Shown one piece after another: positions 6,499-21,861 of a stretch of 64,000 nt of DNA (position 1 is its first letter; the number at the start of each line of letters is the position of its first letter). Under the pieces are notes generated by a model, which saw only the letters and a list, made by a program, of their open reading frames with translations, was not told where the DNA came from and did not search any database. The stretch comes from Parabacteroides distasonis ATCC 8503 (GTDB lineage: Bacteria; Bacteroidota; Bacteroidia; Bacteroidales; Tannerellaceae). The translations under genes were made by a program, and so were the position numbers. The DNA lies in contig NC_009615.1 in assembly GCF_000012845.1 (NCBI RefSeq), forward strand, positions 1,697,501 through 1,761,500. Direction: 5' to 3'.

Positions 6499-7815
6499 TT
6501 ACCGACCTATACAATGATAGATAAAGCCGGTTTCCTCTAACTCTGTCTTGTCATAAATATTACGTCCGTCTAAAATTAAAGGCGTGGACATCAATTTCTT
6601 GATAACAGACCAGGAGGGCATACGAAATTCTTTCCATTCCGTAACAAGCAACAGAGCGTCTGCATCTATCACGGTCTCATAAATATCTTTACCATATGAA
6701 ATCACCCCCACAGGTAAACGTCTTTGAGCCTCGGGCATTGCAACCGGATCATAGGCGGAAATTACACATCCGGCTTCTTTCAACTTTTTGATTAAGACTA
6801 GCGAAGGAGCCTCTCGCATATCATCCGTTTCCGGCTTAAATGCCAATCCCCATAAAGCAATTCGCTTACCTTGTATATCTCCTCTAAAATGTTTCATTAA
6901 TTTACGGAACAATATCGATTTCTGCTCCTCGTTTACGGCTTCCACCGCTTCTAGGATACGCATTTGGTAACCACTGTTGGCTGCGGTCTTCACAAGCGCC
7001 TTAACGTCTTTAGGAAAACAAGACCCACCGTATCCACAACCCGCATATAAGAAACGACTACCTATACGGGCATCCGTACCGATTCCTTTACGTACCATAT
7101 TAACATCCGCCCCAACTATCTCACACAAATTGGCAATATCATTCATAAAACTGATGCGAGTAGCCAACATAGCGTTCGCCGCATATTTTGTCATCTCCGC
7201 AGATGGCACATCCATGAAGATTACACGGAAATTATTTAACAAAAAAGGACGATACAATTTCGCCATCAACTTCTGAGCACGATCAGACTCAACCCCAACA
7301 ACAACCCGGTCTGGACTCATAAAATCCTTGATAGCCGCACCTTCTTTCAAGAATTCAGGATTAGAAGCGATATCAAATTCAATACTCACATCTCGCAAGG
7401 CTTGTTCCTCCTTGATCGCTTTCTTGATTTTCTGGGCAGTGCCTACCGGAACCGTACTTTTCGTAACAACCAAGATATATTTATTCATATAGCGTCCTAC
7501 CGTACGGGCAACCTCAAGCACATACTTCAAGTCTGCGCTACCATCCTCATCGGGAGGTGTACCAACCGCACAAAACAGTACCTCGACCTCATTCAAACAT
7601 TCTTTTAAATCAGTCATAAAATGAAGACGACCAGCTTGGGAATTGCGTGCCACCATCTCGTCTAGCCCCGGTTCATAGATAGGAACTATGCCTTTCTTTA
7701 GATTCTCAATCTTTACCTTATCCACGTCCACACAAAAGACCTCAGTCCCCATTTCCGCAAAACAAGTACCCGTTACCAACCCGACATAGCCTGTACCTAC
7801 AATCGCTATTTTCAT
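6499..7815 (-). CDS. ugd: UDP-glucose 6-dehydrogenase
   Basis: Ugd oxidises UDP-glucose twice with NAD+ to UDP-glucuronate, a precursor of acidic capsule sugars. The 438-residue length is usual. The N-terminal NAD motif is IVGTGYVGLVTG (residues 5-16). The catalytic set is present: Lys210 and Asn214 in the EMTKYAANA helix, and Cys266 and Asp270 in GCGYGGSCFPKD. The gene is divergent from the ornithine-cyclodeaminase-like gene, and both promoters sit in the 123-base gap. This suggests glucuronate or a derivative is part of the glycan made by the adjacent locus. Confidence 0.95.
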   Translation of the reverse strand: MKIAIVGTGYVGLVTGTCFAEMGTEVFCVDVDKVKIENLKKGIVPIYEPGLDEMVARNSQAGRLHFMTDLKECLNEVEVLFCAVGTPPDEDGSADLKYVLEVARTVGRYMNKYILVVTKSTVPVGTAQKIKKAIKEEQALRDVSIEFDIASNPEFLKEGAAIKDFMSPDRVVVGVESDRAQKLMAKLYRPFLLNNFRVIFMDVPSAEMTKYAANAMLATRISFMNDIANLCEIVGADVNMVRKGIGTDARIGSRFLYAGCGYGGSCFPKDVKALVKTAANSGYQMRILEAVEAVNEEQKSILFRKLMKHFRGDIQGKRIALWGLAFKPETDDMREAPSLVLIKKLKEAGCVISAYDPVAMPEAQRRLPVGVISYGKDIYETVIDADALLLVTEWKEFRMPSWSVIKKLMSTPLILDGRNIYDKTELEETGFIYHCIGR

Positions 7816-7938: not shown

Positions 7939-8886
7939 ATGAAAATTATCTCTGAAAATCAGATTAAGGATTTAGGAATTACGCCTGCGACCTGTGTAGA
8001 TTGGGCGAAAGAAAGTTTCTCTATAAAAAACAAGGCTCAATTACCCGCAAAAATAAGTGTACACCCCCAAGGTAATGACTTTTTCACTTCCATGCCCTGC
8101 CTCTTACCCCAAGAATTCTCTAGGTTTGGAATCAAGGTGGTTCATCGTATTGTAGGTGGCATACCTGCTTTAGGAAGCGATATCCTACTCTATGATTCCA
8201 ATACGGGAGAACTATTAGCCCTATTGGGTGGAGATTGGATAACCGCTATGCGTACAGGAGCTGTCGCCACTCTCGCTATCCAAACATTAAAAGCGACCGA
8301 TGCCACTACTTACAGTTTCATCGGCTTAGGAAATACAGCTAGAGCAACTATGTTATGTTTACTTGATAGCCAAAAAAATACGCATCATACAGTTCAGCTA
8401 TTAAAATATAAGGATCAAGCGGATTCCTTTATAGAGAGATTCGGGGCTTATCCCAATGTTACATTCTCGATCATAGACAATATAGAGAATCTCATATCCA
8501 ACTCAGATGTTATTATCAGTTGTATAACAGACGCAAGCAACTTGATCTGTCCGAAAAATGACCTATTTAAAGAAGGATGCCTAGTCGTGCCGATACATAC
8601 GAGAGGATTTCAAAATTGCGATCTCTTTTTCGACAAGGTATATGGCGATGATACCGATCATGTGAAGGGATTCCGTTATTTTTCCCAATTCAAACAATAT
8701 GCCGAGCTAGAAGACGTTTTATCAGGTAGAACGGCTGGCAGAGAAAATGACCATGAACGGATATTAAGTTACAATATAGGTCTTGGTCTACATGATATTC
8801 TATTCGCAAGTAAAATTTATGATAGTTTATCTGCGCAATCTCCAGAGATTAAGATAGAAAGAGAGGTATCAAAATTCTGGATATGA
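7939..8886 (+). CDS. ornithine cyclodeaminase / mu-crystallin family enzyme
   Basis: This 315-residue soluble protein belongs to the NAD(P)-dependent ornithine cyclodeaminase superfamily. That superfamily also holds alanine dehydrogenases, ketimine reductases and siderophore amino-acid synthases such as SbnB. Visible motifs are the substrate-side FGIKVV, the helix WITAMRTGAVATLA (family TALRTAAASALA) and the dinucleotide-binding FIGLGNTARATM. The ligand region near VVPIHTRGF is divergent, so true ornithine cyclodeaminase activity is doubtful. It is the first gene of the forward polysaccharide operon, just before the cytidylyltransferase/PLP fusion. It may therefore make or reduce an amino or imino compound for that pathway. 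The precise reaction is unknown. Confidence 0.75.
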   Translation: MKIISENQIKDLGITPATCVDWAKESFSIKNKAQLPAKISVHPQGNDFFTSMPCLLPQEFSRFGIKVVHRIVGGIPALGSDILLYDSNTGELLALLGGDWITAMRTGAVATLAIQTLKATDATTYSFIGLGNTARATMLCLLDSQKNTHHTVQLLKYKDQADSFIERFGAYPNVTFSIIDNIENLISNSDVIISCITDASNLICPKNDLFKEGCLVVPIHTRGFQNCDLFFDKVYGDDTDHVKGFRYFSQFKQYAELEDVLSGRTAGRENDHERILSYNIGLGLHDILFASKIYDSLSAQSPEIKIEREVSKFWI

Positions 8887-9030: not shown

Positions 9031-10848
9031 ATGCAAGCGATCATATTAGCGGCAGGCATGGGCAAACGCCTTAAAGAGTTGACAAAAAACAACACAAAAT
9101 GCATGATTAAGGTACATAATCAAACCTTAATCGAACGTATGCTTAAACAACTGGAAGCTCTATCTCTGAAACGTATAATTATCGTGATAGGTTATAAAGG
9201 AGAAAAGGTACGTGAGCTTATCGGAGATAAGATAAACAACACTCCTGTTCTTTATGTAGAGAACAATGTATATGATAAAACAAATAATATATACTCGCTA
9301 TATCTCGCTAAAAACTATCTGGTGGAGGACGAGACAATTCTACTTGAATCCGATCTAATTTTTGAGAACTCCATTCTCAGCAAATTGATAAACCATCCCT
9401 ATCCAAATTTGGCAGTAGTTGCCAAATACCAAAGTTGGATGGATGGTACCGTCGTACGGCTGGATGAGGATAACAATATATTGAACTTCATCTCAAAGAA
9501 AGCGTTTCAATTTTGCCAAAAGGAGTCTTATTACAAGACCGTAAATATATATAAATTCAGTAAGGAATTTTCCACTAATAAGTATATTCCGTTCTTGGAA
9601 GCTTATTGTAAAGCCCTCGGTAATAATGAATACTACGAACAAGTTCTAAAGGTAATATCCTTATTAGACAGACCGGATTTAAAGGCCTTGACGATTACAA
9701 CCGAAAAATGGTATGAGATAGATGACCAACAGGACTTAAATAATGCGGAAGCCTTATTTTCGGAAGGCAAGCAAGCATTATCTTTATACGGCAAACGTTA
9801 CGGTGGATACTGGCGTTTCCCTATGTTATTGGATTTCTGCTATCTCGTCAACCCTTATTTCCCAAATACCCGATTGAAGGAAGAAATGAAAGCCAATTTC
9901 GATACTCTCCTTACCGAATATCCTTCCGGTATGCAAGAAAACGCTCAACTAGCCGCCCGTTATGCGGGAATATCCTCCGAACAAATCATCGTAGGAAACG
10001 GAGCGGCCGAGTTAATCAGTGGTTATATGCGTATGACCTCTAAGTATACCACAGGAGTTATATTACCAACATTCGAGGAATACCCGAACCGTTTGGCCCC
10101 TAAGCAGCTGGTGTATTATACTCCCAGCAACCGAGACTTCTCTTATACTGCTTTAGACATTATATCTTTCTTTGATAACAAAGCGATTGAGCAACTTTTG
10201 ATAATTAACCCTGATAACCCATCTGGAAATTTATTATCTAAAAATGAGATATTTGCGCTAGTCGAATGGTCCGAACGAAAAGGGATTCGTTTAATCATAG
10301 ATGAATCTTTCCTTGATTTCGCAAATCCTGAAAATAAACTTTCCCTGTTAGATAAAGAGCTTTTAAACAAATATCCACATTTGATTGTCATTAAGAGCAT
10401 ATCAAAGTCATACGGCGTTCCCGGATTACGATTAGGTTTCTTAGCGTCGGGAAACAAAGATCTCATAAGAACGTTGAAAAAAGACATATCGATTTGGAAC
10501 ATCAACTCCTTCGCTGAATTTTATATGCAGATTTTCGTGAAATACAGTGATGACTACGACAAAGCCTGCCATAAATTCTTAAACGAAAGAGAGCGTTTCT
10601 TCCAGAATCTACAGGCAGTCTCATATCTTAGGGTTATTCCTTCCGCCGCAAATTATTTCTTATGTGAAGTAACCGATACTTACACATCGGAGGAACTTTG
10701 TAGCTCTTTATTGTCGGGAAATAATATCTTGATAAAAAACTGTGGAACTAAAGCAGGGTTTGAAGGGAAACAATATATCCGAATCGCTATCCGGAACAAG
10801 GAAGACAATGATAAGCTAATAGAAGCGCTGACTTCATTGAATAAATAA
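9031..10848 (+). CDS. LicC-like cytidylyltransferase fused to class I/II PLP aminotransferase/decarboxylase-fold enzyme
   Basis: This is a 605-residue two-domain protein. Residues 1-235 are a sugar-nucleotidyltransferase-fold domain: LAAGMGKRL at the N-terminus, and KWYEIDDQQDLNNAE near its end, as in choline-phosphate cytidylyltransferases of the LicC type. Residues 260-605 are a fold-type I PLP enzyme close in pattern to HisC and CobD: INPDNPSGN, LIIDESFLDF, and SISKSYGVPGLRLGF with the PLP lysine at 459. The simplest reading is that the PLP domain makes a phosphorylated amino-alcohol, by transamination of a phospho-ketone or decarboxylation of a phospho-amino acid. The N-terminal domain would then activate it as a CDP derivative for the LicD-type transferase in the same locus. 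The substrate is inferred, not shown. An aminoalkylphosphonate is an alternative. Confidence 0.85.
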   Translation: MQAIILAAGMGKRLKELTKNNTKCMIKVHNQTLIERMLKQLEALSLKRIIIVIGYKGEKVRELIGDKINNTPVLYVENNVYDKTNNIYSLYLAKNYLVEDETILLESDLIFENSILSKLINHPYPNLAVVAKYQSWMDGTVVRLDEDNNILNFISKKAFQFCQKESYYKTVNIYKFSKEFSTNKYIPFLEAYCKALGNNEYYEQVLKVISLLDRPDLKALTITTEKWYEIDDQQDLNNAEALFSEGKQALSLYGKRYGGYWRFPMLLDFCYLVNPYFPNTRLKEEMKANFDTLLTEYPSGMQENAQLAARYAGISSEQIIVGNGAAELISGYMRMTSKYTTGVILPTFEEYPNRLAPKQLVYYTPSNRDFSYTALDIISFFDNKAIEQLLIINPDNPSGNLLSKNEIFALVEWSERKGIRLIIDESFLDFANPENKLSLLDKELLNKYPHLIVIKSISKSYGVPGLRLGFLASGNKDLIRTLKKDISIWNINSFAEFYMQIFVKYSDDYDKACHKFLNERERFFQNLQAVSYLRVIPSAANYFLCEVTDTYTSEELCSSLLSGNNILIKNCGTKAGFEGKQYIRIAIRNKEDNDKLIEALTSLNK

Positions 10849-10873: not shown

Positions 10874-12118
<1,245 letters not shown>

Positions 12119-12332: not shown

Positions 12333-14070
12333 TCATTGTATTAAAATGCGTGTATTTGGATGCACATTTAAAGTAGTAGAAGAAAATTGCTTTGCGGTCA
12401 CGCACACGGTTTCTACACTATCAAGCCCAGTAAACCTAAACAAAGAAAGGCAAGGTCTCACGTCTACTGTTCGTAAAACATAGTTCGATGAGCAATCAAT
12501 ATATTGCAACGCAGGATTACCAGATAAATCTAACGATTGCAAAGCACAGGATCTACAATCCAAGTTTTGCAGGCTAGGATTACCTTTTATATTCAACATC
12601 TTAAGTTGAGAATTTGATGGACACCTCAAGGTTTCCAATAACGGGGAATTACTCGTATCCAAACATTCTATATCCATGTTAGAACATAGAAGATAAATTA
12701 AATTAGTTTTCTCGCTCAAGTCTAATTCTTTAATGCCCACCCATTCCATTGTTACCTCTTCCAACGCTCCGCAATCAGCGAACGACAACTCATCTTGATA
12801 TAAATGATAAATTTTCAAGTATTTAAGAGATTGACATCCATTCAAACGTAAAAAAGCACTAGGATTATAATTATAAAATTCCAGATGCTCAAGGGAAGCA
12901 CATCCACTAAGATCCAAGCCCGGAAAACTTTCAGTTGTATATAGTTTTAGGCCTCGGATACTTTTATTGAAATCCAAGCAAGTTAATCCATAGCAATCTA
13001 AAAACAAATTAGGACAATCACTAACATCTACTTCCCCCGCATTTCCCTCCAACCGGGTATTATCAAGGCTCGTACAACCTTTAAACTGTAATGAGGTCAG
13101 GAGGCTAGATGTTATATACAATGATTCCAACGCTGAACAATTCTGGATATCAACAGAAGAAGGTTGGGCATCCGACCGATAAGTCAAATTCCGCAAATTA
13201 GGATAAAGACTTCCTTTTAGTTCTTTTATCGTCATATTATATACCGTGATACTTTCTAAAGCATGATTCTTACTTAAATCCAAAACACCATCTCCACTAT
13301 CAATAAATATTTCCTTCAAACGAATACAATCTGATAGGTCTATATTGCCAATGCGTCTACTTTCAAACGTTTCCAAGCCAACACACCCTTCCAAGTTAAT
13401 CGAATACGCATAATCAGCGGCCAAACTTTTTAAAGACTTACAACCTTTCAAGTTCAATGCATAATTCTTACCTGTAGGAGTAAATTCCTCTAATGCTTCG
13501 CAACCACTCAAATCAATATCCATTAAACCAATAGCTCCCGTAAAAACAATGCGCTTCAAACGTTTATTATTCTTTAAATCTAAGTTTTGGAAACTAGCCC
13601 CATCTGAGTAATATGCGATAGATGATAGCTGCTCCAAGGACGGCAAATCATTAAGAATAACTCCTGTTGTCTTTATTTTGAGGCATAAATTCTTTAATTG
13701 CTTACAAGCATTTATATCTATCGATTCAAGAACCACCGTAGAACAAGTCAAACTATCTAACTTACAATCTTCGGGAAGCTTCAGATAATTGGTATGGGAA
13801 TTACATACCAAGATCTTTAATGCTTTATTCTGACTAAGATCTACAGAATCAACCAGTGCGTAAGTCAATGACTCTAACGAAGTGAAAAACTCAATCCCTT
13901 CATTGATCCGTAAGATTTGAACTCTTCTCCCGGATCCATAATGTAATCTTCCCATTCAGCCCTCCTTTACCAGGAGGAGTTGGGGTCGGATCAGGAATCG
14001 GGTCTTCTTTTCAACATCCCACAATAAACACAATCGCAAATACATAGGCAAACCATTTCAATGTTTTCAT
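12333..14070 (-). pseudogene. leucine-rich-repeat surface lipoprotein, disrupted
   Basis: The long open part (12333-13955, 540 codons) encodes about 20 irregular leucine-rich repeats such as LDLSGNPALQYIDCSS and is rich in cysteine. It resembles BspA-like or Cys-containing LRR surface proteins of Bacteroidota. Upstream, in another frame, an ATG at 14070 opens a lipoprotein signal peptide (MKTLKWF... IVGC) that hits TGA at 14011-14013, directly after the lipobox Cys. Past that stop, the same frame reads KEDPIPDPTPTPPGK, a typical Pro-rich lipoprotein linker. A further frameshift is needed to join the repeats. Two lesions thus separate the signal peptide from the body. A start at 13955 with GGAGG six bases before it could still give a cytosolic protein. 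Confidence 0.7.
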
Positions 14071-14817: not shown

Positions 14818-16074
14818 ATGATACAGTCTTTGATTAATAAACATTTTTTCAATCTGCTTCTTTTCACCTTGACTTTTGGTATATTGTTATACGATGCCAT
14901 CGGGTTTGATTATACAGATGAAATTTGCGCCTTATTCCTATTCGTTTTATTCGGTATATATCTGTTTTCCACATCCGACTGGAACTTCAACAAGGGCTTT
15001 TTAACAACCATTGGTATTTTCCTGTTCTATTTTTGCTACTCCCTATACATTGGAAGTAATACGAAAACAGCGATAATATCAGATATGTTAATCCAGATCA
15101 AGCCTTATCTCGCTTTTTTCTGCGTATACTCAATGATGCCAAGATTTAGCGAATCCCAGAAAAATATCATGAAATCAATATGCCTTGTATTTTGGTTTCT
15201 CTTGCTTCTGATGGGACTAGGAAAAGCTGTAGAGCCTAGGATTTTATTCCATCTCATGGGACATCCGGCTTATTATGCGGCAGCCGTTGTATGCGTTTCC
15301 CTTTGTTATTTGTATTGCAGTAAGTTCACTAATCTGGATAAGATTACATTTGTTGCTTTATTGTCTATTGGACTAATATCTGGTAGATCTAAATTCTATG
15401 GATTTTTCGCTCTAGCCACATTTATCACGTTCTACTTCTCAAATATAAAGCAGTTCAAGTTAGACGCAAAGAATATTACGATCATATTACTAACTATTGT
15501 CGCAGTATTATTTGTCGCTAGAGAGAAGATCTATTTCTATTTCTATCAGACATTAACCAGCGAGGTAGACAAAGACATGATCGCCCGGTATGTATTATAT
15601 GCGACCGCCCCACAGATATTAATAGATTACTTTCCTTTCGGTAGCGGGTTCGCCAGCTTTGGGACTTTCTCCTCAGGAGTGTATTATTCGAGTATCTATT
15701 CAAAATATGGAATAGATGGAGTATGGGGTATGAGTAAGGACCATTACAACTTTATAGCGGATACCTACTACCCTTCTTTAGCTCAATTTGGCATTGTAGG
15801 GATTATCTTATACATCACTTTTTGGATCTATATCCTTATGAAGGCAATTAAATTCCATAAAAGGACATATAATATGAAATGCTTATCGATGGTATTGATG
15901 ATCATTGGTTTCTTTATCATTGAGGGCACTACCGACTCAACATTTACAACGCATAGAGGCTTTTTTGTCCTTATGCTATTAGGTTTAATATTATCAGATT
16001 TGAAGAACGGGGTGACAGATGAAGTTCATCCAAATGCAAAAGAGTTACAAGATGAAAATACTTCAGATAAATAA
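14818..16074 (+). CDS. wzy: O-antigen polymerase / ligase family protein
   Basis: This 418-residue protein has about ten to eleven hydrophobic segments. A large polar loop in the C-terminal half (about residues 255-315) contains FPFGSGFASFG and YGIDGVWGMSKDHY, as in Wzy polymerases and WaaL-type ligases. It would polymerise flipped repeat units in the periplasm. Sequence alone cannot separate polymerase from ligase; position beside a flippase and export genes favours polymerase. Its 3' end overlaps the next glycosyltransferase start by 23 bases. Confidence 0.82.
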   Translation: MIQSLINKHFFNLLLFTLTFGILLYDAIGFDYTDEICALFLFVLFGIYLFSTSDWNFNKGFLTTIGIFLFYFCYSLYIGSNTKTAIISDMLIQIKPYLAFFCVYSMMPRFSESQKNIMKSICLVFWFLLLLMGLGKAVEPRILFHLMGHPAYYAAAVVCVSLCYLYCSKFTNLDKITFVALLSIGLISGRSKFYGFFALATFITFYFSNIKQFKLDAKNITIILLTIVAVLFVAREKIYFYFYQTLTSEVDKDMIARYVLYATAPQILIDYFPFGSGFASFGTFSSGVYYSSIYSKYGIDGVWGMSKDHYNFIADTYYPSLAQFGIVGIILYITFWIYILMKAIKFHKRTYNMKCLSMVLMIIGFFIIEGTTDSTFTTHRGFFVLMLLGLILSDLKNGVTDEVHPNAKELQDENTSDK

Positions 16075-17275
16075 ATACTTTTTCAAAAAAGGAGGTGCGG
16101 AAACTGTCTTTTTCAACACGATTCAGCTCCTCGAGAGACATGGGCACACAGTTATCCCATTCAGTCTTAAGAATAAGAAGAACGAACCTTCTCCTTATGA
16201 GTCGTATTTTGTAGACTATCCAGAACTATCGGAATCTTCTTTACCCAAGAAAATAAAAAATTTACCGGCTTTTATCTATAATAAAGAAGCCGCACGTAAA
16301 TTAGAGAAGTTGATCCAAAAGGAGAAACCGGATGTAGCACATATACATCTGATGTTTAATAGTATGTCTGTATCGATCTTACCAGTCCTCAAGAAATACA
16401 ATATTCCTATTATCATGAGTGTCCACGACTATCGTTTAGTCTGTCCTGCATACACATTCACGGATGGAAAAAGGAATTTTTGTGAGCGTTGTAAGACCGG
16501 GAATTACTACAATTGCATAACACACAAATGCTCAAAAGGTAGCCTCATCAACAGTTTCATGTTGAGCATGGATAGTTATTTCCGATCAAAATTCTATTCT
16601 CCGATCGATTACATCAATCGATTCATATTTGTCAGCAAATTCTCTATGAATAAGCATATTCAAGTAGAGAACCGATTCAAGGATAGATGTACTTATTTGT
16701 ATAATTTTACCCCGAAGGTAAAAGATTACAGTTCAACAAAAGGAGATTATATCTTTTTCTTTGGAAGAATATCCGAGGAAAAAGGTATCCTCACCTTATT
16801 GAATGCGATCAAGCAAGTTCCTGATATAAAATTAAAATTAGCTGGAACCGGACCTTTATTGGAGCAACTAAAGTCTCAATGCCCTCCAAACGCAGAGTTT
16901 CTGGGATTCAAACAAGGAGAAGAACTGCGGGAACTTATTCACAATGCCTCTTTTGTTGTAGTCTCATCCGAATGCTATGAGAATAACCCGATGACAATCA
17001 TTGAATCCTATATGATAGGAACTCCTGTTATTGGTAGTGATTTGGGAGGAATACCAGAGTTGATTATTGAAAACAAAACCGGATATACATTCAAGCCAAA
17101 ATCACCCGATGACCTAAAAGAAACGATTACAAAGGCTTGTTCTATATCAGAGGAAGAATATGCGAGAATGTCGGATGAGGCGAAGAAATTCGCAATGGAT
17201 AACTTCTCAGAAGAAAGCCATTATCAAAAACTCATCAAAAACTATCAACTCATTATCGATCAGAATAAGCGATGA
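16052..17275 (+). CDS. GT4-family glycosyltransferase
   Basis: I chose the ATG at 16052 (MKILQINKYFFKKGGAE) over one at 16019, because the GT4 fold starts exactly there. The protein is 407 residues. The first lobe has the GGAE loop and MSVHDYRLVCPAY. The second lobe has FFGRISEEKGI and the nucleotide-sugar binding SSECYENNPMTIIESYMIG, with the EX7E pair. A CxxC-type cluster (CERCKTGNYYNCITHKC) in the first lobe is common in this subgroup. It acts at the cytoplasmic face on a lipid-linked oligosaccharide. It overlaps the polymerase gene and the next glycosyltransferase gene (ATGA). Confidence 0.9.
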   Translation: MKILQINKYFFKKGGAETVFFNTIQLLERHGHTVIPFSLKNKKNEPSPYESYFVDYPELSESSLPKKIKNLPAFIYNKEAARKLEKLIQKEKPDVAHIHLMFNSMSVSILPVLKKYNIPIIMSVHDYRLVCPAYTFTDGKRNFCERCKTGNYYNCITHKCSKGSLINSFMLSMDSYFRSKFYSPIDYINRFIFVSKFSMNKHIQVENRFKDRCTYLYNFTPKVKDYSSTKGDYIFFFGRISEEKGILTLLNAIKQVPDIKLKLAGTGPLLEQLKSQCPPNAEFLGFKQGEELRELIHNASFVVVSSECYENNPMTIIESYMIGTPVIGSDLGGIPELIIENKTGYTFKPKSPDDLKETITKACSISEEEYARMSDEAKKFAMDNFSEESHYQKLIKNYQLIIDQNKR

Positions 17276-18351
17276 AAAATGTCTATGTATTTGGGACAAG
17301 AGGCTTTCCGAATGTACAAGGAGGCGTAGAGAAGCATTGTGAGCAACTTTATCCGGAACTGACTTCTAAATATAACATTTCTATATTCAGAAGGATTCCA
17401 TTCTTAAAGAAAAATGCGGAAAAGGTATATAAAGGCATACGATTCATAGATCTACCTTCTACACGAATAAAAGGGTTTGAGCCTTTTTTCCATTCATTCT
17501 TGTGCACTATATATTGTATTATTAAGAGACCAGATATCGTACATATCCATAACATTGGTCCCGGAATGTTTATACCACTCCTTAAACTCGCTGGGTTGAA
17601 AGTTGTCCTTACGTATCATAGCGCAAACTATGAACATAAGAAATGGAATTACATATCCCGAAAAATATTAAAATTCAGCGAATGGATAGCTGTTAATGGT
17701 TCTACAGCCGTAATCTTTGTCAATAAAAAGCAAATGTGTCTTTTCAATGATAAAATTCAGCGTAAATCCACTTATATACCGAATGGAGTATATCGCAAGC
17801 AACTAGCGACAAGGACTGATTATATAGAGAAACTTGGGTTACAACCTCAAAAATATATTTTAGCTGTTGGACGTATTACACAGGAGAAAGGATTTGATTA
17901 TCTGATTGATAGCTACGTACAATCTTTACCTCATGACTTCAAGCTCGTTTTAGCCGGAGGAGTAGACCATAACTCCTCCTATTCGTCCGAAATCAGCGAA
18001 AGAGCCCAAAAACAGAATGTAATCATGCCCGGATATGTGGATGGAGAATTTCTAAGGCAATTATACTCCCATGCCAGACTTTTTGTATTACCTTCTTATA
18101 ATGAAGGCTTCCCATTAGTACTTTTAGAAGCGATGAGTTATCATCTACCTATATTGGCAAGTGATATACCCGCTAATAAATTACTTGAGCTAAATCCAGG
18201 GGACTATTTCAAAACAGGGGATGCTTTGGATCTATCTAAGCACATAAAACAAAAACTGGCTCAAGAATTTACCAGAGTTGACTATCCACTCGACGAGTAT
18301 ACGTGGCAGAATGTCAGCGACAAAGTAACTACAATCTTTGACAAGATATAA
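17272..18351 (+). CDS. GT4-family glycosyltransferase (rhamnosyltransferase-like)
   Basis: This 359-residue protein opens with VFGTRGFPNVQGGVEKH, the hallmark of a GT4 subgroup that includes capsule rhamnosyltransferases. The second lobe has LAVGRITQEKGFDYLI and the EX7E segment EGFPLVLLEAMSYHLP. It starts inside the stop of the previous gene (ATGA overlap), so the two glycosyltransferases are coupled. It is the last forward gene of the locus; a perfect hairpin begins at its stop codon. Donor specificity cannot be told from sequence alone. Confidence 0.88.
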   Translation: MKNVYVFGTRGFPNVQGGVEKHCEQLYPELTSKYNISIFRRIPFLKKNAEKVYKGIRFIDLPSTRIKGFEPFFHSFLCTIYCIIKRPDIVHIHNIGPGMFIPLLKLAGLKVVLTYHSANYEHKKWNYISRKILKFSEWIAVNGSTAVIFVNKKQMCLFNDKIQRKSTYIPNGVYRKQLATRTDYIEKLGLQPQKYILAVGRITQEKGFDYLIDSYVQSLPHDFKLVLAGGVDHNSSYSSEISERAQKQNVIMPGYVDGEFLRQLYSHARLFVLPSYNEGFPLVLLEAMSYHLPILASDIPANKLLELNPGDYFKTGDALDLSKHIKQKLAQEFTRVDYPLDEYTWQNVSDKVTTIFDKI

Positions 18352-18397
18352 AAAATATCCCTCAAAATACTGTTTAGCTATTTTGAGGGATATTTTT
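18351..18397. terminator. bidirectional terminator at the centre of the polysaccharide locus
   Basis: A perfect 19-bp inverted repeat (18351-18369 with 18379-18397) has a 9-base loop. Its arms start and end in A5/T5 runs, so it can act as a Rho-independent terminator in both directions. It separates the convergent glycosyltransferase and licD-like genes. Confidence 0.9.
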
Positions 18398-19259
18398 ATA
18401 TAATTGGCTTTATTTCATGAGCATGTTGCGCAGCCAAACGCTGCTTCTCAGGAGGTGGAGTCATATAATTAGGACCATATAATGTCGTTAAATATACATC
18501 TGGTCTATGAGGCGCAAAAAACTTTGAATCCTCAAAGTCTATCTCTACTACAGGAAAGATATCGTCAAATCGAAGATATCTTTTCCACAAGGTATCGAAA
18601 CCATGACCAAGGCGGCAGTCTGTACCTAATCCCCTATTCTTATCAATAAGCTTCTTTGCGAATTTCATATATTGAAGAACCAGTTTATGGAATACGGGAT
18701 GAAAAAAAGCCAATATCTTTTTATCTATAGACTCATCCTTGAAATATATCGCATCCAAGCTCTTGCATATAAACGTATTATAGACCTTCACCATTTTTTC
18801 AAACATAAAAGGCAATTTCTGTTTATGATAACGATCCATAGGAAATATATCTATAAACAACCCCTTCTCGCACTCTTCATCCTCATATCCCGGAGATAAT
18901 ATAAAGCTTTTCTTGTCTCTAACCTTACAAGGTAAAGGCAAATAATGGTAATGAGGATCAGTCTCTCTGGTCTGCAACATCATATCTTCAGGGAACTCAT
19001 TCACGGCAATCTCTACAAAACGCTCATAATCCTCACGAATCATACAGATATCCAAATCATCGTCCCAAGGTATGAAACCTTTATGACGAACCGCACCTAA
19101 TAAGGTACCCGAGCACATCCAATAAGAAATATCATGCTTTCGACATATATAATCAATAATCTTAAGCATCCTCAACATCACTAATTGCGCTTGACGCAAT
19201 ACCGTTTCTCCTTCTTGACGATTGTCAGGATATAATTTCGAGAAATCAACAACACTCAT
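18396..19259 (-). CDS. LicD-family phosphotransferase
   Basis: LicD proteins transfer phosphocholine or related phospho-alcohols from a CDP donor onto a sugar. The 287-residue protein has the family core WMCSGTLLGAVRHKGFIPWD followed by DDLDICM, with the DDD-type metal-binding residues of a nucleotidyltransferase-like fold. It is the third gene of the reverse operon wza-wzz-licD (6 bases after wzz). It provides the natural acceptor step for the CDP-activated product predicted for the fusion enzyme at 9031-10848. No choline kinase or choline transporter is in the window, so the headgroup is probably not scavenged choline. Confidence 0.88.
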   Translation of the reverse strand: MSVVDFSKLYPDNRQEGETVLRQAQLVMLRMLKIIDYICRKHDISYWMCSGTLLGAVRHKGFIPWDDDLDICMIREDYERFVEIAVNEFPEDMMLQTRETDPHYHYLPLPCKVRDKKSFILSPGYEDEECEKGLFIDIFPMDRYHKQKLPFMFEKMVKVYNTFICKSLDAIYFKDESIDKKILAFFHPVFHKLVLQYMKFAKKLIDKNRGLGTDCRLGHGFDTLWKRYLRFDDIFPVVEIDFEDSKFFAPHRPDVYLTTLYGPNYMTPPPEKQRLAAQHAHEIKPII

Positions 19260-19265
19260 AAAATA

Positions 19266-20879
19266 TTACTTAGAATCTTTACTTTGCTTTTTATATTCTT
19301 GGATAAGAAGAGACGATTGTCTTCTTACAAATAAGTAAGATATAGGTATCACCAATGTTAAGACCAACATTCCAATAAGCGCAAACAACTTACGAGGACC
19401 GACAGGCTTGCTCTTTACATAGGCAGGATCAATCACCCGAGCCTTATCTCTTGTCTGACCTAAAATAAGAGCGGTCTCCTCTCGCTTCTGAAGTAATATC
19501 AAATAAACGCCTTGAATAATTTCCTGTCTACGTTTCAACTCTACAAACTGTCTTTCCGCAACCGGATAATTATTCATTTTACTATAAATTTCCTGCTCCT
19601 TCGCTTTTACATCCTTTATTGACCGCTGCATTCCTTTTTGAGCATTACCGATGGTTTCTATTACGCTTCCACGTAACTTATCCGCTTGCTCAGTCAAAGT
19701 TCCGACCAGCGGGTTATTGATACTCGAATTTTGAATTACGCGTGCACGTTCTAGCAAAACTTCATTATAACTAGTTAACGCACTTCCTTTCTCCCCTTCC
19801 TGAGCGGTCAATAAAACAGGTACCAAATTATATTTATTCGCAGGATCTTTCACGAATTCATCCATCATATTGATGACATTGGATTGAGCCTCCAATTCTA
19901 TCAACTTTGTTTGTAGTTCTTTCATTTGTTCCACATAGAATTGAACGTCATGCTCTATATCCATCAATTGGTTCTTGCTCTTATATTCTTCAATTTGGTT
20001 TTCGACAGCGGCAAGTTCCGCTATAATATTCTCAATCCTCCCATCTAAGAAAACCAAAGATTTACGAGCCTCTCCTTTTTTATACGCCTCAGCTTCTTTG
20101 TTATAGATCGCAATTAATGTATCTAGCATATCCGTACCCCGATTCTTTTCATAATCAGTGCAACTCAACTCTATTACGTTTGAAGTCTTGGAGCTTCCTT
20201 CTATTAAAAATTCTTTCTCCAAATCCTCTGCGACCCACCCCGCAGGATTATATGTAATATCAAGTTTCGCTGAGGTGATATCTTTTTTTCCCGGCGCAAA
20301 GTCCAAGGTGAAGTTTCCCATCGGTAACTCAATGGTAGCAGGCAATGATGGAAAACTAAAATGTTTCTTTTTCATATTAACAGACTCCGCTGAAACCTCC
20401 GCCTTACCATTTTTTACGAAAACCGAGAACTCCACAGCTTCTGCCAAGCGTGCGTTTGTAGCAGAATCGGCAATCAACTTTAAAGGAGATTCATCATATA
20501 AACGATAGCCCAAAGAAAATGGTTCACAATAATCGACATTCACGCCTAATTTCAGAACCATATTCCGAAGCATTTTATTAGAAGTCAATGTCATTAGTTC
20601 ATCATCAATATTAACGACACCTCCAGAAACAGATCCCAACCCAAAAGATTTCATCAACCCAGCGGCCTCTCCCAATCCAAAGCTACCTCCTCCGAGGTCT
20701 TTATCTTCCTGAATCTGGATACGGGCCATCATCTCATATGTACGAGGGTAATAAATCAGATATAAAACCGCAGGGATTATAGAAAACAGGAATACCCCTA
20801 AAAATAATTTCCAATGCAATAGATATCTTACGATAATACTTTTAAGTCCGATTGTTTCGTTGTCTTTCACTTCCATCAT
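19266..20879 (-). CDS. polysaccharide chain-length determinant (Wzz/GumC type, no kinase)
   Basis: This 537-residue inner-membrane co-polymerase has two membrane helices, at about residues 28-48 and 500-522. Between them is a large periplasmic region with a long coiled coil (about 260-440). YYPRTYEMMARIQIQ follows the first helix, as in Wzz/Wzc proteins. The Walker-type tyrosine kinase domain of Wzc is absent. It controls chain length and links polymerase to export. It lies 7 bases after the wza-like gene and 6 bases before licD. Confidence 0.9.
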   Translation of the reverse strand: MMEVKDNETIGLKSIIVRYLLHWKLFLGVFLFSIIPAVLYLIYYPRTYEMMARIQIQEDKDLGGGSFGLGEAAGLMKSFGLGSVSGGVVNIDDELMTLTSNKMLRNMVLKLGVNVDYCEPFSLGYRLYDESPLKLIADSATNARLAEAVEFSVFVKNGKAEVSAESVNMKKKHFSFPSLPATIELPMGNFTLDFAPGKKDITSAKLDITYNPAGWVAEDLEKEFLIEGSSKTSNVIELSCTDYEKNRGTDMLDTLIAIYNKEAEAYKKGEARKSLVFLDGRIENIIAELAAVENQIEEYKSKNQLMDIEHDVQFYVEQMKELQTKLIELEAQSNVINMMDEFVKDPANKYNLVPVLLTAQEGEKGSALTSYNEVLLERARVIQNSSINNPLVGTLTEQADKLRGSVIETIGNAQKGMQRSIKDVKAKEQEIYSKMNNYPVAERQFVELKRRQEIIQGVYLILLQKREETALILGQTRDKARVIDPAYVKSKPVGPRKLFALIGMLVLTLVIPISYLFVRRQSSLLIQEYKKQSKDSK

Positions 20880-20886
20880 CTAATTA

Positions 20887-21690
20887 TTATTTAGTAATAG
20901 CCAATATAACAGTCGTTATCACAGATACAGCGCTCAAAATTGAGGAGAACACGGTTATACTATATTGTTGGGCTTGACTATAACGGGCGTTTCTCTTCTT
21001 CGCATTATTCGGTTCCACATAAACAACATCATTTTGTTGAAGATAATAATAGGGGGAAGTAAATATATCCGGCTCGGTAATATCCAAACGAGCAAACTCC
21101 TTTTCTCCATTATTATCTCGTATAACCAAGATGTTCTTACGGTTTGCGTTAATTGTCAAATCACCGACCTGACCGATAGCATCTAAAATTGAAAGACGAT
21201 CATTTTTCACGGAAATCGCACCCGGCCGAGAGACCTCACCCATCATCGTGACCTTATAATTAACAATCTGTACATTAACCAAAGCATCTTTCACATAAGG
21301 GGAGATCATTTCTTGCATTTTATCACTTAACTGTTGCTTGGTCAATCCCGCCACATGGATCTTTCCCAAAACAGGGAAATTTATGTCACCTTCCTGATCA
21401 ACCAAATACGTTCTTAATTGACCAGAAGAAACCGTCGTAGTCTCACCTTGAGTTGCATAGGCATATACAGGGGGATTAAAGGGAGTAACGACTGTCGGAT
21501 CCCATGCCGTAACGGTTATCGTAAGTAAGTCATCAGGGCAAATCTTCGAGGTATAAGCTTGATTCATCTTACTCACCTGTTCGGGGGTCAAGGCATCCAC
21601 TCCTTGGAAATAAACCACATCTTTAGGAACAGAACAAGCCCCTAACAATAAGACAAACAATGCCACTACTGATACTAATTTCACTTTCAT
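20887..21690 (-). CDS. polysaccharide export outer-membrane lipoprotein (Wza-like)
   Basis: I chose the ATG at 21690 because it opens a lipoprotein signal (MKVKLVS... LLLGAC). The frame continues upstream across the promoter, so the earlier start is not used. The protein is 267 residues. The polysaccharide-export domain covers about 50-150 (CPDDLLTITVTAWDP). An SLBB domain follows (YKVTMMGEVSRPGAISV), then a hydrophobic C-terminal helix. Wza-type proteins form the outer-membrane channel for capsule or exopolysaccharide. It is first in the reverse operon and pairs with the chain-length protein. Confidence 0.92.
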   Translation of the reverse strand: MKVKLVSVVALFVLLLGACSVPKDVVYFQGVDALTPEQVSKMNQAYTSKICPDDLLTITVTAWDPTVVTPFNPPVYAYATQGETTTVSSGQLRTYLVDQEGDINFPVLGKIHVAGLTKQQLSDKMQEMISPYVKDALVNVQIVNYKVTMMGEVSRPGAISVKNDRLSILDAIGQVGDLTINANRKNILVIRDNNGEKEFARLDITEPDIFTSPYYYLQQNDVVYVEPNNAKKRNARYSQAQQYSITVFSSILSAVSVITTVILAITK

Positions 21691-21716
21691 AATCTTTGTT
21701 TTCTTCAAATAAGGTG

Positions 21717-21724
21717 CAAATATA
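21717..21724 (-). promoter_or_regulatory. promoter -7 box for wza-wzz-licD
   Basis: The reverse strand reads TATATTTG, a full match to TAnnTTTG, 26 bases upstream of the wza-like ATG. Confidence 0.6.
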
Positions 21725-21861
21725 CGTTTTTTAGTTTGAACATGAGGTCTCAAAAGGACCACAAGTATAAAGATACTTCTATAACGATGCAATTGTCTAG
21801 ATATTGCTGCATGCTAAATCAAAATTATAGTTGTTTTTACCGCTTTTTCATGATTATTGCG

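Follow-up and report, generated by a model that had tools for sequence, protein, structure and literature searches.

In a 64,000-nucleotide stretch of the Parabacteroides distasonis ATCC 8503 genome (NC_009615.1, positions 1,697,501 to 1,761,500; hereafter the window), a polysaccharide locus encodes a 605-residue protein (9031..10848, + strand) in which a cytidylyltransferase is fused to a pyridoxal phosphate (PLP)-dependent enzyme. With somewhat more confidence than doubt, and judging from sequence, we propose that this bifunctional protein makes cytidine diphosphate (CDP)-ethanolamine from phosphoserine, that an adjoining reductase N-carboxyethylates the product, and that a LicD transferase passes the headgroup to a surface glycan. 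The original prediction, made from the DNA alone, was of a self-made phospho-amino-alcohol activated with cytidine triphosphate (CTP) for LicD. That idea is supported by comparison, namely by the clustering with LicD, a pair of glutamates at the likely amine site, the grouping of the PLP half with SMUL_1544 of Sulfurospirillum multivorans, and the separate HisC and CobD of the genome, and it now gains a third step, of the opine-reductase type. The partner then overlooked, a reductase encoded at 7939-8886, probably changes the final headgroup.

The two halves of the fusion protein

The fusion is real. A single open reading frame, with an ATG start and no internal stop, encodes one chain, which AlphaFold models with confidence (pLDDT 90.8, pTM 0.85) and in which Pfam domains exceed their cut-offs in both halves (NTP_transf_3 and NTP_transferase in residues 3-135, Aminotran_1_2 at 295-600). 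The cytidylyltransferase half covers residues ~1-245 (9031..9765, + strand), and the PLP half, as assigned by homology and tree, residues ~263-605 (9817..10845, + strand).

The N-terminal half is of LicC type, as had been predicted, although PntC is its nearest relative and LicC comes second; models and structures of sugar-phosphate nucleotidylyltransferases match it more weakly. In PntC of Treponema denticola (Tde-PntC), Glu104 and Glu196 lie near the amine of 2-aminoethylphosphonate (AEP), while LicC has the smaller Asp there (Rice 2019, PMC6697681) and favours phosphocholine 2700-fold over phosphoethanolamine (cited in Rice 2019, PMC6697681). In pairwise alignment the window protein shows Glu106 and Glu203 opposite the two Tde-PntC residues, and this pair is invariant in 55 of 55 aligned fusions; thus both of the LicC Asp positions are Glu in the fusion. 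Across the whole P. distasonis genome there is no PF01633 match, in keeping with the earlier remark that choline kinase is missing from the locus, and nothing that passes as phosphoenolpyruvate (PEP) mutase, the top PF13714 score of 22.9 bits falling short of the 31.5-bit cut-off. Phosphocholine is therefore an unlikely substrate, given this absence and a glutamate pair of the PntC rather than the LicC type, as is AEP in a genome with no PEP mutase over cut-off. With both routes wanting, the natural candidate becomes ethanolamine phosphate, which differs from AEP by an additional oxygen. The other match to the N-terminal half in this genome (L007) is a 245-residue nucleotidyltransferase beside a kinase-like gene, a pair that we take to resemble MurU/AmgK.

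The C-terminal half belongs to PF00155, class I/II, and not to the class V type of AEP transaminase. Its closest solved-structure homologue by sequence is SMUL_1544 (PDB 6oux, E 6e-47), with which it has a D-x-C-Y-L-x-N-P-Y stretch in common. Lys459, earlier named as the PLP lysine, indeed aligns with the lysine in the S-x-x-K stretch of Salmonella CobD and is invariant in the 55 aligned fusions. In an IQ-TREE phylogeny of 19 rows, a sparse sampling with nine fusion C-terminal halves and three CobDs but neither Cj1436 nor Cj1437 of Campylobacter, the nine halves formed one clade with SMUL_1544, itself on a long branch (support 100/98.8). The tests rejected a clade of fusion halves and the three CobDs that leaves SMUL_1544 outside (p 0.002), and also a grouping with HisC (p 3e-5). 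HisC ancestry, one part of the predicted HisC/CobD-type assignment, is thus rejected; the half is CobD-like and sister to SMUL_1544.

Against the HisC model TIGR01141 the fusion scores 159.1 bits (cut-off 276.55), whereas the genome's own HisC, encoded elsewhere between genes that by eye are hisD-like and hisB-like, scores 356.7; with the tree test against it and a separate HisC at hand, we reject a histidinol-phosphate function. The CobD model TIGR01140 gives 184.7 bits (cut-off 290.55), but a separate CobD of the Porphyromonas gingivalis type in the same genome (E 2.5e-140) also stays below the cut-off, at 254.9 bits. As that CobD is present, a role of the fusion in cobamide synthesis is unlikely. 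SMUL_1544 was reportedly described by Keller in 2016 as a phosphoserine decarboxylase. An excerpt of another source proposes it as the maker of ethanolamine phosphate (PMC4585668), and partial accounts of Campylobacter have Cj1436 converting phosphoserine to ethanolamine phosphate and Cj1437 yielding serinol phosphate.

A possible unfused version of the pair, in genome G082, was set aside. There, genes for a HisC-like PLP enzyme, a LicC-like cytidylyltransferase and a CDP-glycerol-type transferase follow in a row (L121:8100-10982), in a locus resembling those for lipopolysaccharide core. The PLP enzyme (HisC-like, 219 bits) groups with HisC and not with the fusion, in a place where two long branches meet. 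Because of this HisC-like gene, and of a CDP-glycerol-type transferase in such a locus, we do not count the row as the same system; it is probably a different CDP-headgroup module.

Distribution of the fusion and its partners

Distribution was assessed in 123 genomes of the host's family, in 393 genomes drawn from its order, and in the best 80 of at least 581 matched stretches that encode a relative of the query (E <= 1e-3). The two-domain fusion is found in 26 of the 123 family genomes (in G041 its parts lie on two contigs, and in G007 a contig end truncates it) and in 13 of the 393 order genomes, P. distasonis itself counted, a recurrence that argues against a chance pairing of domains. Both halves are encoded in every one of the best 80 loci. 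Frame-broken copies occur in one of the order genomes (G386:C2:195505-197317) and in L117. A 95% identical fusion is present in Parabacteroides sp. ZJ-118. P. distasonis itself carries a second copy, 61% identical to the first (C1:1642975-1644780, that is L009:10969-12780, - strand), directly followed by genes for Wzx, LicD and then a pyruvyl transferase. The fusion is, in short, scattered through the Bacteroidales, repeatedly near LicD. Two metagenome-assembled genomes labelled Lachnospiraceae (L091 and L107) also have it, followed by a membrane protein of ~634 residues (L091:7477-9378, L107:3852-5753) whose start looks YidC-like by eye.

The LicD gene predicted in the window is genuine (18396..19259, - strand; PF04991, 203.8 bits, profile positions 1-227), and the search suggested earlier, for the same domain pair next to LicD in other genomes, was positive. 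In the family sample, LicD is present in 61 of 123 genomes, comprising 24 of 26 with the fusion and 37 of 97 without (Fisher p 4e-7, kinship ignored). Among the 26, it lies within 10 kb of the fusion in 15, at 62 kb in one and on another contig in eight, and is absent from two, which are incomplete genomes. Among the best 80 loci, the flanks (up to 10 kb) include LicD in 57, or in 36 of the 44 where both flanks reach at least 9 kb. The other two LicD genes of P. distasonis (L127 9443-11724, L128 7748-10361) each have the gene of an IspD-type cytidylyltransferase as direct neighbour or at a distance of one gene, and every LicD of this genome has a CDP-donor-type enzyme in its locus. One of these two IspD-type enzymes is fused to a short-chain dehydrogenase, presumably a CDP-ribitol-like layout; the other has an epimerase-family gene in between.

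The overlooked gene (7939..8886, + strand) encodes a putative imine reductase of the ornithine cyclodeaminase (OCD)/mu-crystallin family (PF02423, 87.1 bits) and ends 144 bp before the fusion starts. Such reductases are frequent companions. In the flanks of the best 80 loci we found a member of the octopine dehydrogenase family (ODH) alone in 45, an OCD/mu-crystallin member alone in 21, both in two and neither in 12; in 62 loci the reductase either belongs to the fusion chain itself or is encoded no more than 150 bp away. In L081, L084, L090 and L095 the ODH is a fused third domain (Pfam-checked for L081). Taking a PF02317 match or a long PF02423 match above 80 bits as the criterion for a reductase in the family sample, we found one in all 26 genomes with the fusion and in none of the other 97 (p 3e-27, kinship ignored). 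All 16 of the 123 genomes with PF02317 have the fusion, as do all 12 with a long OCD match above 80 bits; the other OCD matches come solely from genomes that lack the fusion, and they are partial and below 30 bits, in three genomes just over the Pfam cut-off. Two of the ODHs, in P. distasonis (G000, L129) and in G049 (L131), have diverged, scoring 54 and 43 bits as against 342-520 for fusion-linked ones, and are not beside the fusion in the stretches read. When these are left out, 14 ODH and 12 OCD genomes remain, the two sets being disjoint and still making up 26 of 26. The divergent P. distasonis homologue belongs to another locus (L129:9466-10542, or C1:~498466-499542).

The two reductase families have repeatedly replaced one another. 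By parsimony, 11 changes between ODH and OCD are needed on each of two fusion trees (FastTree and a quick IQ-TREE run), six of them forced by starred branches, although the label is still clustered on the tree (11 changes against a shuffled mean of 19.6). The OCD clade of the window protein falls inside a starred clade of 16 rows, five OCD and 11 ODH. That two unrelated families swap beside one enzyme argues that both act on its product. Along its whole length the fusion-linked ODH can be aligned with octopine dehydrogenase (PDB 3c7a, E 1e-42), and the His, Arg and Asp of that enzyme at 212, 324 and 329, which we take to be its catalytic and pyruvate-binding residues, are near-invariant in 49 rows. 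The OCD family, for its part, includes a sponge tauropine dehydrogenase (PMC3840593, in excerpt). Since taurine resembles ethanolamine phosphate but carries a sulfonate in place of the phosphate ester, N-carboxyethylation of the fusion product would be the simplest reaction common to both families.

Proposed pathway and its alternatives

In the pathway that we propose, the PLP half would decarboxylate L-serine-O-phosphate to ethanolamine phosphate, which the N-terminal half would join to cytidine monophosphate from CTP, giving CDP-ethanolamine. The adjoining reductase (OCD in the window, ODH in many relatives) would then reductively couple an alpha-keto acid to the amine in opine style; with pyruvate, the most likely keto acid, the product would be CDP-N-(1-carboxyethyl)ethanolamine. 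Finally, LicD would move the headgroup phosphate from this CDP donor onto the Wzx/Wzy-type surface glycan of the locus. Placing the reductase after cytidylylation is a guess, made because the glutamates of the N-terminal half are the same with and without a reductase. The company that reductases keep with the fusion in its relatives suggests that the decoration is the rarer carboxyethyl-ethanolamine phosphate and not the plain compound.

Several observations weigh against a pathway of this form. Beyond the host's family the association loosens: among the 12 other order-sample genomes with the fusion, eight have a reductase over threshold (five ODH, three OCD; six beside the fusion) and four have none, while 63 of the 380 fusion-less genomes of that sample have one over threshold (p 2e-4 for the difference from 8 of 12). 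The second P. distasonis fusion has no adjacent reductase of either type, and the same is true of several other loci, some with LicD adjacent; such loci may make plain phosphoethanolamine. Moreover, in L078 (8412-9938) and L093 (8256-9992) a single IspD-LicD protein is encoded immediately upstream of the fusion, and the flanks examined contain no reductase. The LicD part of these proteins, being fused to IspD, may serve another donor.

It is conceivable, if rather unlikely, that plain phosphoethanolamine is the general rule, such that the fusion makes CDP-ethanolamine, LicD adds the headgroup unmodified, and the reductase works on a different residue of the same glycan, such as a sugar with an N- or O-linked carboxyethyl group or an attached amino acid. 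The four order-sample genomes just mentioned and the 12 of the best 80 loci with no reductase in their flanks would fit this well, as would LicD directly adjacent in the reductase-less L089, L133, L135 and L136 (weak in L133 and L135, at 62 bits) and N-terminal glutamates that are identical whether or not a reductase is present. On the other hand, four loci encode ODH and the fusion as a single chain, and the co-occurrence in all 26 fusion genomes of the family, together with the repeated exchange of reductases, ties the reductase to the fusion product rather than to a variable sugar. A different amino alcohol is less probable still: the PLP half could make (R)-1-amino-2-propanol phosphate from phosphothreonine, as CobD does, or serinol phosphate by transaminating dihydroxyacetone phosphate in the manner of Cj1437. 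However, it is specifically sister to SMUL_1544, the ethanolamine phosphate maker proposed in the excerpted source (PMC4585668), albeit in a tree without Cj1436 and Cj1437, and a PntC-type amine pocket is tight. We regard phosphoserine decarboxylation to ethanolamine phosphate as more likely than formation of serinol phosphate.

We give very little weight to the view that the fusion is incidental, its N-terminal half activating a sugar phosphate or phosphocholine and its PLP half being an unrelated sugar or amino-acid aminotransferase. The weaker matches to sugar-phosphate nucleotidylyltransferase models and structures are what could be said for it. The best matches, however, are PntC and LicC, the glutamate pair is invariant in all 55 fusions, the genome has no choline kinase, the halves are kept together throughout the best 80 loci (frame-broken in L117), and HisC and CobD are encoded separately.

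As to carboxyethylated ethanolamine phosphate itself, N-[(R)-1-carboxyethyl]ethanolamine phosphate is among the abbreviations explained for a published figure on the O-polysaccharides of P. mirabilis and K. pneumoniae (PMC9630907, in excerpt). We take Proteus to be its bearer, and the headgroup proposed here would be this compound or its mirror image. Excerpts of a paper on Proteus O-antigen genetics make no mention of ethanolamine or opine genes (PMC5560731). No genes for N-(1-carboxyethyl)ethanolamine phosphate turned up in the papers searched, nor did any paper describing the present pathway, in a literature searched by title and start of abstract with subscription papers mostly outside it. 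If true, our proposal would provide a genetic pathway for this compound of O-antigens, linking a known glycan component to a definite gene set, and swaps of the reductase may set the stereochemistry or the keto acid and so diversify the antigen. It would also offer a testable way for gut bacteria to decorate their surface with aminoethyl phosphate while depending on neither choline nor ethanolamine from the host. Amines linked through phosphodiesters render a glycan zwitterionic, a feature of importance when the immune system recognizes Bacteroidales. It is uncommon to see two unrelated reductases of the opine type trade places again and again next to a fusion that itself stays conserved, and this pattern provides a direct handle on function. 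The chances seem to us about evenly balanced that gut Bacteroidales perform opine chemistry on a nucleotide-activated headgroup, converting phosphoserine to CDP-N-(1-carboxyethyl)ethanolamine by means of two or three catalytic domains that frequently share a chain, with the two reductases repeatedly interchanged beside or within the fusion, and that LicD places the resulting zwitterionic carboxyethyl-ethanolamine phosphate on surface glycans. Annotation pipelines can be expected to label these genes as aminotransferase, ornithine cyclodeaminase or histidinol-phosphate aminotransferase, labels that are probably misleading.

The window locus and comparison with known systems

The window locus looks like one for a surface polysaccharide of the Wzx/Wzy type, the Wzy part being the more conjectural. 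Upstream of the reductase gene lies that of a nucleotide-sugar dehydrogenase of the UDP-glucose type (6499..7815, - strand; profile matches). The fusion is followed by a Wzx-like flippase (10874..12118, + strand; PF01943), and a leucine-rich-repeat protein is encoded on the opposite strand in the middle of the locus (12333-13955, - strand). Next come a membrane protein with ~7 hydrophobic segments and no Pfam match, possibly the Wzy polymerase (14818..16074, + strand), and two GT4 glycosyltransferases (16019..17275 and 17272..18351, both + strand). LicD, the putative final step, precedes a Wzz/GNVR chain-length protein (19266..20879, - strand) and a Wza-type polysaccharide export protein with SLBB domain (20887..21792, - strand).

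Among known systems, Tde1415 of T. denticola (PntC-AEPT; PDB 6pd1/6pd2) offers a partial precedent, by analogy, for a single protein that both produces an amine headgroup and activates it. It has the same type of cytidylyltransferase, with Glu104 and Glu196, fused in the same N-to-C order to the PLP enzyme that supplies it with its amine, and its gene neighbourhoods include LicD-like or glycosyltransferase genes (Rice 2019, PMC6697681). Its PLP half, however, is a class V AEP transaminase of a phosphonate pathway, whereas that of the window fusion is of the class I/II SMUL_1544/CobD type; and since the P. distasonis genome has no PEP mutase over cut-off, the substrate here should be a phosphate ester. 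SMUL_1544, in turn, is a stand-alone protein encoded in a norcobamide gene cluster, without a cytidylyltransferase.

In Streptococcus pneumoniae, as proposed here, a LicC-like enzyme forms a CDP-aminoalcohol and LicD transfers the headgroup, but the Glu positions of the fusion are Asp in LicC, the P. distasonis genome has no choline kinase, and the precursor would here come from central metabolism. The parallel drawn earlier with Campylobacter jejuni holds in part: according to partial accounts, Cj1436 and Cj1437 do make ethanolamine phosphate or serinol phosphate for the capsule, but as separate proteins; the phosphate ester is coupled through an amide to glucuronate and later loses its phosphate, and those accounts describe no activation with CDP.

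Octopine and tauropine dehydrogenases act on free amino acids or taurine. The ODH linked to the fusion is homologous to the former over its full length (PDB 3c7a), the OCD family holds the sponge tauropine dehydrogenase (PMC3840593, in excerpt), and taurine and ethanolamine phosphate can both be regarded as 2-aminoethyl acids. What differs is that here the reductase neighbours a CDP-headgroup enzyme or forms part of its chain. As far as we have seen, then, the fused layout of synthase plus activator is known from PntC-AEPT, and what is new is the combination of PLP family, phosphate-ester substrate and opine-type reductase.
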